A stretch of 64,000 bases of DNA from a virus, in the IMG/VR virus record IMGVR_UViG_3300043448_001007, positions 1 to 64,000 of that record, one strand, 5' to 3'. Positions within the stretch are counted from its first letter, which is position 1; each line of letters opens with the position of its first letter. Shown piece by piece: positions 21,622 to 26,743 of this stretch. The position numbers were made by a program, and so were the translations under genes. The notes under the pieces were generated by a model. The model was given only the letters and a program-made list of their open reading frames with translations, was not told the DNA's origin and did no database searches.

Positions 21622-21786
21622 ATGGCAAGAAAAAAAGGTAAATTAAAAGAAAAGGTTGGTTTTTCAATCGATAAAGAAATCAACGAATTGTTGGAACAAT
21701 ACTGCCAAGATAACATGGTTAATAAGTCTAAACTAATTAATCATTTAATAAAATCTTTCTTAGTTATACAGGAGGAAAAAGTGTAA
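21622..21786 (+). CDS. Ribbon-helix-helix DNA-binding protein coupled to terminase (54 aa)
   Basis: A short gene with ATG at 21622 and TAA at 21784-21786. After a basic start (MARKKGKLKEK) the product reads VGFSIDKEINELLEQYCQDN and then NKSKLINHLIKSFL: one beta strand and two helices in the Arc/MetJ arrangement. Its stop overlaps the ATG of terminase (TAATG). A perfect AGGAGG at 21770-21775 lies 10 bp before that ATG, rare in this phage, so terminase translation is probably coupled to this gene. It could autoregulate the packaging operon or act as the DNA-recognition partner of terminase; both are inference. Confidence 0.75.
   Translation: MARKKGKLKEKVGFSIDKEINELLEQYCQDNMVNKSKLINHLIKSFLVIQEEKV
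21770..21775 (+). promoter_or_regulatory. Shine-Dalgarno sequence for terminase
   Basis: AGGAGG ten bases before the ATG at 21786, inside the last codons of the ribbon-helix-helix gene. Other genes here have A-rich leaders without such a site. Confidence 0.65.
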
Positions 21787-22289
21787 TGGCTACTAAACAA
21801 ATAATATGGACAACTAAAGCAATTGACGAAGTTAATGAGCAAATAAATATGGGGTTTTATCCTAAAGGTGATATGAATCCATTTTTTGAAGGAACTCCTG
21901 GGTTTAGAAAACCCGGATTGGCTTTTAAAATGACACAGAATGAATTAGAAGAATACATTAAATGTAAAATGGATATTCACTACTTTTCTGAAAATTATTG
22001 CTATGTTAAAGGTGATCAAGGTGAACCAATTAAATTAAAACTTAGAGACTATCAGAAAGAAGTTCTGGATAACTTTTTTAATAACCGTTTTAATATACTA
22101 ATGGCCAGCAGGCAAGTTGGTAAATGCCTGGGTTTCAATGAGTTAGTAGAAATAGAGGTTGGTGATAATATTGTTTTTATTAAAATAGGTAAATTATATT
22201 ATGATACACTTAAAGAAATAAAGGGACTTACATTATTACAAAGAGTTAAGATATTTTTATACGATTTTCTTTCTAAATTGGAAAATTAG
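21786..22289 (+). CDS. terL: Terminase large subunit N-terminal part plus intein N-segment (167 aa)
   Basis: Residues 1-113 are the start of a T4 gp17-type packaging ATPase. They include KLKLRDYQKEVLDNF (adenine-binding Q region) and MASRQVGK, the Walker A motif up to its Lys. At residue 114 the extein stops and an intein begins: CLGFNELVEIEVGDN is an intein block A with Cys1. About 54 intein residues follow, ending LYDFLSKLEN before TAG. The rest of the intein and of terminase are in the ORF at 22372, one frame away. Alone this product has no complete ATP site, so it needs protein splicing in trans or a repaired frame to be useful. Confidence 0.88.
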   Translation: MATKQIIWTTKAIDEVNEQINMGFYPKGDMNPFFEGTPGFRKPGLAFKMTQNELEEYIKCKMDIHYFSENYCYVKGDQGEPIKLKLRDYQKEVLDNFFNNRFNILMASRQVGKCLGFNELVEIEVGDNIVFIKIGKLYYDTLKEIKGLTLLQRVKIFLYDFLSKLEN

Positions 22290-22818
22290 CTTTCTTACTT
22301 AACAGGAAGCCAGATAATTTTAATATATGGGAGTCTGACTATAGAAAGAACCCAGAAAAAATAACCAAATTATGTTTAAATTTCTTACAAATATAACAAT
22401 ATATTTAATTCGTAGATTAATTGAGATAGTTGAATACTTTGAGTATTTCAATCGAGATCTTGATGAAGATGATATTCATAAAAAGGTGATAAATGTTATA
22501 TCAACTAGAATTAAAGTTAAATCTGATACTGGTTTTGTTAATGCTAGTGAAATAAATCTAACTCAACCATTTACTCATTATTTATTGATATTAGATAATG
22601 GATATCAATTAAGAGCAGCTGATCATCATTTAGTTTTTGACTCTAATTACTCAACTATCAGAGTTTGTGATTTAAATAAAGGTGATGAAATATGGACTGA
22701 TCAAGGTTTAGTTAAAGTGAAAAGTGTTAAGAAATTAAACTTTAAAAGTTCAATGTTTGATTTGTCAATTGATGATTCAAATATGAGATACTATACTAAT
22801 GGTATTTTATCACATAAT
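22125..22818 (+). other. Intein in terminase Walker A, coding region split in two
   Basis: The insertion lies exactly between Lys and Thr of Walker A (SRQVGK / TVCSS). The first residue is Cys. Block B (LRAADHHLVF), block F (MFDLSIDDSNMRYYTNGIL) and block G (SHN followed by Thr) are all recognisable in the second ORF. There is no LAGLIDADG or HNH endonuclease. The span is 694 bp, not a multiple of three: the frame closes at 22289 and reopens at an ATG at 22372. TTTTAATATAT at 22318-22328, the phage's promoter motif, lies between. This fits a split intein with a ~54-residue N-part and a 149-residue C-part; a frameshifted relic is the alternative. Confidence 0.82.
22318..22328 (+). promoter_or_regulatory. 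Promoter-like element between the intein halves (TTTTAATATAT)
   Basis: Matches the recurrent TTTAATATAT element and lies 43 bp upstream of the ATG of the C-terminal intein/terminase ORF. It would let the second half be transcribed as its own gene. Confidence 0.45.
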
Positions 22819-24573
22819 ACTGTTTGTTCATCTATAATGATTTTACATTTTGTTTTATTTAATAATAATAAGAACTGTTTAGTTACGGCTAATAAATTAG
22901 ATACGGCGGTTGAGGTTTTGGATAAAATGAAAGAGATTTACCAAAGGCTTCCATTCTTTTTACAGCAGGGGATTTTAAACTGGAATCAAAAATTTATGGT
23001 TTTTGAAAATAAGAGTAGAATTAAAGGATTTGCTACAACTAAGACAGCTTCTATTGGTCAAACAGCTGACTTTTTATATTTGGATGAGTTTGCTTATTTA
23101 CCGGACAATATAGCAGATAAATTTTATAAATCGGTTTTCCCAACTGTATCAAATATTGATAACTCAAAGATTATTATCACATCAACCCCAAATGGAATTA
23201 ATTTATTTCATAAATTGTTGATTGAGGCTGAGAAGCCGGAAGGTGAGAAATCATCATATATTGCTAAAAGAGTTTATTGGTGGCAGGTTCCGAAAAGATT
23301 TGTTTCATATATTAGATTAAGTAAAGATAAATGTTTGAGTTATGGTATAAATCCGGAAGATGTTTTGAAACACTATCAAGAAAAGTTTCCAGATACTAAA
23401 AGTGAGTTATATTATAATGATGAGTTAAAAAAATGGGTGGTTAATGTTTTCAATAATGAAAGTTGTTCAGAAGATGATGTTATTCGGGAAGAAATAAAGG
23501 GTGCTAAAATACCGGAGATTGCGGAAATAACAACTTGGAAAAAGGAAACAATTAAAGATATTGGTGGTGAAGAAGCTTTTAACCAAGAATATGATTTGAG
23601 GTTTATAAATTCATCTAGAAGTTTATTGAGTGAGGGATTGATTGATCAATTAACTAAAGGTAAAGATCCATATGAATGGGAACCAATAGATGAATTAGAT
23701 AATCGAATTAAGTTTTCATATTTAGATTTAAAATGGAATCAAAATCCGGATATTTATAATCCATTAGATAGAAAAAATATGAAAGTTGTATTTTCAGTAG
23801 ATACTGCTGAGGGTTTAGGTCAGGATTATTCAATAATTAATATTTTTAAATTAGTTCCTAAACCAATTACTTTAATGGAGATGCAGAAAAAGAATTATAA
23901 ATCAATTGTAGATTGTTTTCAATTGGTTCAGATTGGTATGTATAGATCAAACCTTGTTTCTGTTCAACAATTATCCGAGATTTTATATGTTTTAGCTTTT
24001 GAATACTTCGATCCTGAAAATGTTAAGATTGTTTTGGAGATAAATGCTTATGGACATGAATTATTGGCACATTTACCAAATTTATTTGATGGTAATAATG
24101 ATTACGGTTCTTTTATCTTTTTCAAATATAAACATCGAGCTGATGCAATAGAAGAGAAGATTGGATTAAAAGTTGGTGATAATAAAAATCTATTAGTTAA
24201 AGACTATCAAGATAGAATGCATGAAAATTCTGTTATTATTAACAATAATGATAATATAAATGAAATAACAACATTTATTAAACATATAACATCGGCTGGT
24301 AATGTTACTTATTCCGCTGATGGTTCAGCTCATGATGACACTGTTATGACTGTTGTTAACTTGTGTTCAGTCTTTGGGAAAAAGGATTTTAAGCAAATCT
24401 GTGATGAGTTTTTACCTTTGATTAAAGATACAGAAGTAAAAAATTATATTAATCAGTTAATAAATAATGGTGAATATGTTGAAGGTTTAAATTACTCACA
24501 ACTTTTGAATATTCGTCGCCAGAATTTAAACCATCAAAAGATGATGAATAATATGAATAAGGGAAAGTTTTAA
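22372..24573 (+). CDS. terL: Intein C-segment plus terminase large subunit ATPase/nuclease (733 aa)
   Basis: Residues 1-149 are the C-terminal intein part, ending GILSHN at the splice junction. From residue 150 (TVCSS) terminase resumes. Seen in order: Walker B with the catalytic Glu (FLYLDEFAYL), the coupling motif IIITSTPNG, then an RNase H-like nuclease with acidic residues in FSVDTAEGLGQDYS, IVLEINAYG and DGSAHDDTVM. These match T4 gp17, so both ATPase and headful nuclease appear intact. ATG at 22372 is the first start after stops in this frame; TTTAAAT at 22375 is also a -1 slippery heptamer. Upstream leader is A-rich. Joined to the N-terminal ORF after splicing it would give a terminase of about 700 residues. 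Confidence 0.9.
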   Translation: MFKFLTNITIYLIRRLIEIVEYFEYFNRDLDEDDIHKKVINVISTRIKVKSDTGFVNASEINLTQPFTHYLLILDNGYQLRAADHHLVFDSNYSTIRVCDLNKGDEIWTDQGLVKVKSVKKLNFKSSMFDLSIDDSNMRYYTNGILSHNTVCSSIMILHFVLFNNNKNCLVTANKLDTAVEVLDKMKEIYQRLPFFLQQGILNWNQKFMVFENKSRIKGFATTKTASIGQTADFLYLDEFAYLPDNIADKFYKSVFPTVSNIDNSKIIITSTPNGINLFHKLLIEAEKPEGEKSSYIAKRVYWWQVPKRFVSYIRLSKDKCLSYGINPEDVLKHYQEKFPDTKSELYYNDELKKWVVNVFNNESCSEDDVIREEIKGAKIPEIAEITTWKKETIKDIGGEEAFNQEYDLRFINSSRSLLSEGLIDQLTKGKDPYEWEPIDELDNRIKFSYLDLKWNQNPDIYNPLDRKNMKVVFSVDTAEGLGQDYSIINIFKLVPKPITLMEMQKKNYKSIVDCFQLVQIGMYRSNLVSVQQLSEILYVLAFEYFDPENVKIVLEINAYGHELLAHLPNLFDGNNDYGSFIFFKYKHRADAIEEKIGLKVGDNKNLLVKDYQDRMHENSVIINNNDNINEITTFIKHITSAGNVTYSADGSAHDDTVMTVVNLCSVFGKKDFKQICDEFLPLIKDTEVKNYINQLINNGEYVEGLNYSQLLNIRRQNLNHQKMMNNMNKGKF

Positions 24574-26167: not shown

Positions 26168-26743
26168 ATGAAACATATTAAAACATTTGAAAAATATCAA
26201 AATAGAAAAAGAAGAGATGAAATTATAAAGGAATCAGTTCTTCAAGTTAATGATATTTATAAAGTTAGAACTATGGTTGATATTCCACAATCTTTAATCA
26301 ATTCATACGTGAAAAAAGTAAAAGATACAACTGGTAAAAATTTAAGACAATTTTTCGGAGATGTTGATATTGCAGAAGAAATTGTTAAGTATATTAACTT
26401 AGAGTTTTTAAATGTTGATAAGATCCCATCTGGTTTTTTAACAGGTGATGCTCAAGGTCAAGGACAAGGACAATCTCAAGTTCAGGGTCAAGGACAAGAA
26501 GCTCAAGTTCAACCTCAAGTTCAGGATCAAGGTCAAGTTCAAGTTCAAACAGATGCACAATCACAAGTCCAAGACGATTTTGAGGAAGTTCAAGGTCAAG
26601 GTCAATCTCAAGGTCAAGGTCAATCACAAGTTCAGGGTCAAGGTCAATCACAAGTTCAAGGTCAAGGTCAATCTCAGGAAGAAGATGAAGAAGAATCAAC
26701 TGAGGAGCTTCCAGAAGAAGGTGAAACAGAAGATGAAATATAA
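26168..26743 (+). CDS. Tagged protein with Gln-Gly/Gln-Val low-complexity domain (191 aa)
   Basis: MKHIKTFEKYQNRKRRDEII is another tag-like N-terminus. Residues ~25-90 are an ordinary folded-looking region (VDIPQSLINSYVKKV). From ~94 to 170 the chain is a repeat of Gly-Gln, Ser-Gln and Val-Gln encoded by a short DNA repeat based on CAAGGT/CAAGTT. The end is strongly acidic (Glu/Asp/Thr). The repeat produces long shadow ORFs in other frames, which are not genes. A Gln-rich domain may be a flexible spacer or a condensing segment; its length probably varies among related phages. Confidence 0.75.
   Translation: MKHIKTFEKYQNRKRRDEIIKESVLQVNDIYKVRTMVDIPQSLINSYVKKVKDTTGKNLRQFFGDVDIAEEIVKYINLEFLNVDKIPSGFLTGDAQGQGQGQSQVQGQGQEAQVQPQVQDQGQVQVQTDAQSQVQDDFEEVQGQGQSQGQGQSQVQGQGQSQVQGQGQSQEEDEEESTEELPEEGETEDEI
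26455..26680 (+). repeat. Short tandem repeat encoding (Gly/Val/Ser)-Gln
   Basis: Degenerate 6-bp units (CAAGGT, CAAGTT, CAATCA) arranged in larger 12-24 bp periods, in frame within the tagged gene. A likely site of length change by replication slippage. Confidence 0.8.

Follow-up and report, generated by a model that had tools for sequence, protein, structure and literature searches.

The split terminase gene

The large terminase gene of the virus represented by IMG/VR record IMGVR_UViG_3300043448_001007, of which positions 1 to 64,000 were analysed (hereafter the window), is divided between two open reading frames (ORFs). We propose, with a probability of about 0.9, that it is a "fractured gene" that has lost its homing endonuclease: the terminase would be made as two polypeptides carrying the halves of an atypically split intein inserted in the Walker A motif, and these halves are predicted from their sequence to trans-splice. 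The break falls exactly between the Lys and the Thr of Walker A (RQVGK/TVCSS). ORF1 (21786-22289, 167 residues) ends in a TAG stop at 22287, and ORF2 (22372-24573, 733 residues) starts with an ATG in a different frame; the locus comprises the following elements.

21786-22124, plus strand: N-extein of the large terminase (TerL), 113 residues, ending in SRQVGK, the first half of Walker A (phrog_5989 terminase, 5e-19)
22125-22286, plus strand: N-terminal intein part (IntN), 54 residues, with Cys1, the block A strands and a C-terminal helical tail (about residues 33-54); homologous IntN in 11 aligned relatives
22287-22289, plus strand: TAG stop codon of the N precursor
22277-22393, plus strand: third-frame remnant of a Vsr-like homing endonuclease gene (its 3' end), DNFNIWESDYRKNPEKITKLCLNFLQI followed by a stop; matched part 22319-22390
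22318-22328, plus strand: promoter-like element TTTTAATATAT of putative function, 43 bp upstream of the IntC ATG and within the remnant
22372-22818, plus strand: C-terminal intein part (IntC), 149 residues, with an N-terminal helix (about residues 1-28), a DTGF strand, block B (AADHHLVF) and blocks F and G (YYTNGILSHN)
22819-24570, plus strand: TerL C-extein, 584 residues, starting with TVCSS, the rest of Walker A; Walker B and nuclease motifs intact

The N-extein is preceded by AGGAGG. Both exteins belong to the large terminase family according to PHROG and Pfam; joined at Lys/Thr they make a protein of 697 residues, and the C-extein carries Walker B (LYLDEFAY) as well as the TSTPNG, DTAEG and HDD motifs. 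A preliminary description of this DNA, made from the letters alone, had placed the break at this point, with intein parts of about 54 and 149 residues and with intact ATPase and nuclease motifs in the exteins; the ORF coordinates, frames and residues are exactly as it gave them, and the lengths and motifs agree. Its reading of the locus as a split intein also holds, given the 58 split loci listed in relatives, the conserved catalytic residues, the ratio of non-synonymous to synonymous substitution rates (dN/dS) below 1, and VidaL and Cat as the nearest structures.

Related loci with the same split

The comparison with related loci that had been recommended was carried out. A search of viral contigs with ORF2 gave 23 loci, eight of which have the same two-ORF arrangement; others are intein-free, with a continuous Walker A motif and an unbroken GKT. 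Further searches enlarged the set to at least 58 split loci, non-identical as judged on about 200 bases at the start of IntC, and the family is larger than this. All 58 split loci listed are interrupted at the same place, with GK before Cys1 and His-Asn before Thr or Ser at the far end; IntC ends in SHN in 57 of them and in HHN in one, and IntN has a median length of 55 residues (37-73). A contiguous intein at the same GK/T site was found in four loci (L040, L113, L135 and L141). An intein suggested by tblastn in Morganella phage Rgz1 was spurious, since Walker A is uninterrupted there.

Besides these, L038 (LR756500.1), a split locus that keeps its endonuclease, has an IntC that ends in SSQ, not SHN, before the +1 Thr, and is possibly a Gln-ending intein. 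Members of these intein and endonuclease families are also present in another P-loop protein (L049-L056 and L058-L060), where the split IntC stands before STMLDAL or a similar sequence; by sequence the host looks like an ATPase of the gp46/SbcC type, a second P-loop host of this split intein family.

Residues, fold and class of the intein

Cys1 is encoded by codon 22125-22127; it is invariant in the 11 aligned relatives and stands as the nucleophile at residue 1 in the window and in every one of the 58 split loci listed. Alignments that put the IntN rows in the wrong place were left out of the conclusions. The window IntC ends in GILSHN, followed by TVCSS, which gives a penultimate His, a terminal Asn and a Thr at +1, and by its conserved residues the intein fits class 1 chemistry. 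The +1 residue is the P-loop Thr instead of the Cys of the AceL/GOS/Cat-TerL insertion type. The chain is divided after block A and before block B, which leaves a short IntN, as in the inteins called atypically split. Wherever dN/dS could be computed in the relatives, IntN and IntC included, it was below 1.

The nearest solved structures to the window IntC are VidaL and Cat, the latter described with an atypical split site. The contiguous homologue L113, when modelled, adopts a HINT fold, with a mean predicted local distance difference test score (pLDDT) of 80; VidaL and Cat are its top matches in the PDB, and the 50 PDB matches listed are inteins or intein-like domains. In this model a long helix (residues 43-74) occupies the place where the other loci are split; the tail helix of the window IntN was placed by it.

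It is proposed that a free-standing Vsr-like endonuclease gene came to lie in the intein, within the helix between block A and the strand that precedes block B, and that intein and terminase were consequently made as two polypeptides. The tail helix of IntN and the head helix of IntC, probably the two parts of the long helix of the L113 model, would pair and help the fragments to meet, after which the two parts would form a single HINT domain. Class 1 trans-splicing is then expected to be carried out by Cys1, the His residues of block B and of the penultimate position, Asn149 and Thr+1, and ligation would yield the 697-residue terminase with its P-loop intact. Before ligation, with the P-loop Lys on one chain and the Thr on the other, either half would be without a complete P-loop and is expected to lack ATPase activity; a split inside the P-loop of an essential motor should therefore make phage packaging conditional on protein ligation by the intein. 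For protein engineering, the family represents dozens of natural split inteins with a longer, helix-tipped IntN.

An endonuclease remnant in the gap

ORF1 and ORF2 lie on the same strand, 82 bp apart; this gap has stops in frames 0 and 1, and frame 2, which has none, is open from 22277 to 22393. In this frame the window reads DNFNIWESDYRKNPEKITKLCLNFLQI, where the endonuclease 3' end in the relative L002 reads GFKVLVIWDSEFKKNKKETIEKCLNFLNQ, each followed by a stop that is placed 22 bp inside the start of IntC in both. Against a profile of the C-terminal part of the endonuclease the gap scored 17.9 bits, and none of 2000 dinucleotide shuffles of the gap exceeded 7.4. Part of this similarity is common to the overlapping start of IntC; with that overlap excluded, the remnant still gave E-values of 4e-5 (wider profile) and 0.001 (first profile). 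When the full endonuclease profile was run against all ORFs of the 64-kb window, the gap remnant was the only match. The claim of a remnant rests on the protein level, because DNA-level resemblance to L002, L003 and L004 is no more than suggestive in the gap.

At the protein level, then, the 82-bp gap reads as the eroded 3' end, about the last 26 codons, of an endonuclease gene. A free-standing endonuclease ORF between the halves is present in 41 of the 58 split loci listed and absent from the window, which has the 3' remnant only. The window endonuclease has been deleted down to these codons, which adjoin and overlap the start of IntC, while the split was kept; autonomous homing of the element is therefore no longer expected.

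The endonuclease of the relatives and its fate

The ORF in the gap of these relatives has about 310 residues and lies on the strand of IntN and IntC, and in many loci its 3' end overlaps or abuts the start of IntC. The endonucleases examined have a Ros/MucR-like zinc-finger N-terminus, which falls below the Pfam cut-off, and a DUF559/MTES_1575-like nuclease C-terminus (Pfam); that of one relative matches a PHROG homing endonuclease. By sequence, the first PDB match is I-Bth0305I (3r3p), a weak one (E 0.04), with Vsr nucleases close behind; by fold, the modelled catalytic domain matches I-Bth0305I first (E 0.02, probability 1.00, TMt 0.74) and Vsr third. With a Vsr-type catalytic fold in the model, the gap gene is predicted to encode a Vsr-like (EDxHD) homing endonuclease.

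Pairs of loci suggest how this gene has moved. Between L002 and L003, identity is mostly 98-100% across the stretch from IntN to the end of IntC, with one 150-bp block at 91%, and mostly 83-93% in the adjoining exteins; dS between them is 0 in IntN and IntC versus 0.53 in the C-extein. The block of identity coincides with the cassette, the signature that recent homing of the whole cassette would predict. In L005 and L042, IntN and the endonuclease gene share 92-98% DNA identity, and IntC and the exteins about 53-78%, a pattern that points clearly to exchange of the endonuclease gene into already split alleles. The window, at about 52% identity to relatives in IntC and about 68% in the C-extein, carries an intein that is old compared with the L002/L003 cassette.

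Other loci show different stages of erosion. About 63 endonuclease codons are left in the 190-bp gap of L085, and about 20-26 in the window, L081 and L105; when the IntC overlap is left out, the remnant scores of L081 and L105 are weak. In L004 the trace is fainter yet and contains stops, and no endonuclease trace was found in L034 (47-bp gap) or L123 (24-bp gap), where one was sought. On the C-extein tree the seven short-gap alleles that lack the endonuclease need seven changes, at least six of them forced by well supported branches, a count that would be raised too by gains of the endonuclease gene in already split alleles. It appears that loss of the endonuclease occurred repeatedly and left the split in place. 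L034 and L032 are 99% identical at the protein level, yet their gaps measure 47 and 1812 bp. Another, opposite-strand endonuclease-like ORF is found in four gaps (L032/L034, L027, L075 and L139), and one of these matches DUF7487.

The halves may also be displaced. In the 735-kb phage genome LR756501 (L037, LR756501.1 606000-627000; L154), about 12 kb separates the terminase IntN from its IntC, a stretch that carries genes in both orientations. Its IntC ends in NLN and a second, partial terminase (390 residues) lies at about 700 kb, for which reasons we are unsure that this split intein is functional.

The series of an empty site, a split with a whole endonuclease, an eroded endonuclease, a clean gap and displaced halves allows the origin and fate of a split intein, which are usually argued from single cases, to be read directly. 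A more general proposal is that terminase Walker A inteins of this kind form a widespread family in which invasion by the endonuclease is a one-way split, after which the endonuclease is often lost, replaced or relocated and the halves never rejoin, so that the packaging motor becomes permanently dependent on trans-splicing and is perhaps timed by it; this is put forward tentatively, as an idea that we would sooner doubt than adopt.

The promoter-like element

Allowing up to one mismatch, TTTTAATATAT gave 65 matches versus 33 expected, and an element of this kind lies within 60 nt upstream of 25 of the 58 called genes of the window, in agreement with the enrichment ahead of genes that the preliminary description had reported. 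It often stands 5-9 or 17-22 bp ahead of the ATG. In this phage it probably serves as a promoter or as a start-region signal. The gap had been seen as a promoter-bearing spacer through which the two halves are expressed separately; the element is indeed there, and the DNA around it reads as the eroded endonuclease end (17.9 bits).

Transcription of IntC-TerL on its own from 22318-22328, with the halves regulated apart, would refine a trans-splicing terminase without excluding it, and we consider its chances to be slightly below even. The exact match at that position and the frequency of the element ahead of the window genes speak for it. However, in only four of the 58 split loci is the element found before IntC, within one mismatch; a close match was looked for in L002 and L003 at the position of the remnant and none was present; and a single transcript is enough for two ORFs 82 bp apart on one strand. 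Separate expression of the halves is thus retained as a possibility.

Alternative explanations

Several points weigh against a fractured, trans-splicing terminase. A second contig with the exact window locus was searched for and none was found, so the bases rest on one assembly. Block B of the window reads AADHH, with the final His invariant in the alignment and Ala in place of the usual Thr (TxxH), although AD.H is common to the whole intein family. The fold model was made on L113 only, which is about 45% identical to the window in IntC, and the remnant, counted outside its overlap with IntC, is short, at 16 matched residues. Insertion of the endonuclease gene probably created the split, to judge from its position, but the split may be the older of the two.

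The terminase pieces could cooperate without ligation, the intein parts being passengers, as has been reported for phage Aeh1, whose NrdA is split. A phage gene that is essential and yet interrupted by an endonuclease gene thus has a precedent (PMC3653736); nevertheless, this is very improbable here, where the P-loop itself is interrupted, with Lys on one side and Thr on the other, where GK, Cys1 and His-Asn before Thr or Ser are kept in all the split loci listed, and where dN/dS is below 1 in IntN and IntC. That the terminase is dead or decaying, in a genome that is degraded or a mere fragment, is even harder to credit: the record is linear, 74 kb long and possibly a fragment, and its endonuclease is visibly eroded, but the two ORFs together are open across 900 codons, the enzyme motifs are present, and split alleles without the endonuclease occur in scattered parts of the tree, as viable alleles would. 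Least probable of all is a contiguous intein broken by an assembly or sequencing error, the one- or two-base error that had been named as a refutation, for although four contiguous inteins occur at this site and the exact window sequence comes from one record, the 58 split loci listed are split at the same place, mostly with a whole gene in the gap, stops close two of the three gap frames, and the third reads as the end of an endonuclease. Programmed frameshifting or stop read-through was rejected, as the gap contains an entire gene in most relatives and about 12 kb in one record.

Comparison with known systems

The fractured genes of Dassa et al. 2009 reportedly consist of a split intein with a free-standing Vsr-like endonuclease between its halves, and are said to be split at the canonical site. 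The 41 relatives with an endonuclease between the intein halves resemble these cases in that arrangement, whereas the window intein is split near the N-terminus and its endonuclease is gone. VidaL (6vgv) is the best structural and the best profile match, with about 27% identity in the fold alignment.

AceL-TerL, GOS-TerL and the consensus intein Cat are atypically split terminase inteins with an IntN of 25-37 residues and a Cys at +1 (PMC11766414). The intein of the window is like these (Cat, 6dsl) in its terminase host, its short IntN and long IntC and its corresponding split region, and residues 36-148 of its IntC align to CatC 6-111; unlike them, it has Thr+1 within Walker A, an IntN of 54 residues and additional helices that flank the split on each side. 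For Cat, hydrophobic association followed by extein threading has been described (PMC11766414). Jumbo phage MIJ3 has a split PolB intein with an HNH endonuclease, which is similar in that an essential phage gene holds a split intein with an endonuclease ORF between its halves, and differs in the host gene, the nuclease family and the split position, blocks A to N4 being in the N part (PMC6892783). In the Jug phages terL is split by group I introns, a mechanism different from that of an intein (PMC12363816).

The Kuttervirus terminase PP856729.1 (L040, Salmonella) has a contiguous intein at the same GK/T site, with Cys1 and SHN before Thr; it differs in being a single ORF with a shorter linker at the place of the split and without an endonuclease. 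The record is annotated plainly as terminase. No description was found of a Walker A site with Thr+1, an IntN of near 55 residues and a Vsr-like endonuclease at an N-proximal split, in a search confined largely to the open literature; provisionally, the site and the IntN length are new, and two known themes are combined.

Other genes of the same phage

Outside the window, at about 68-70 kb of the phage's own contig, a 680-residue ORF (L155) has KWGV repeats and a Vsr-like nuclease domain; it probably encodes another homing endonuclease of the same phage, and it resembles the opposite-strand genes found in the gaps. Within the window, the ORF at 26168-26743 contains a long Gln-Gly/Gln-Val low-complexity repeat, and its N-terminus resembles a gene located between the terminase halves of LR756501.
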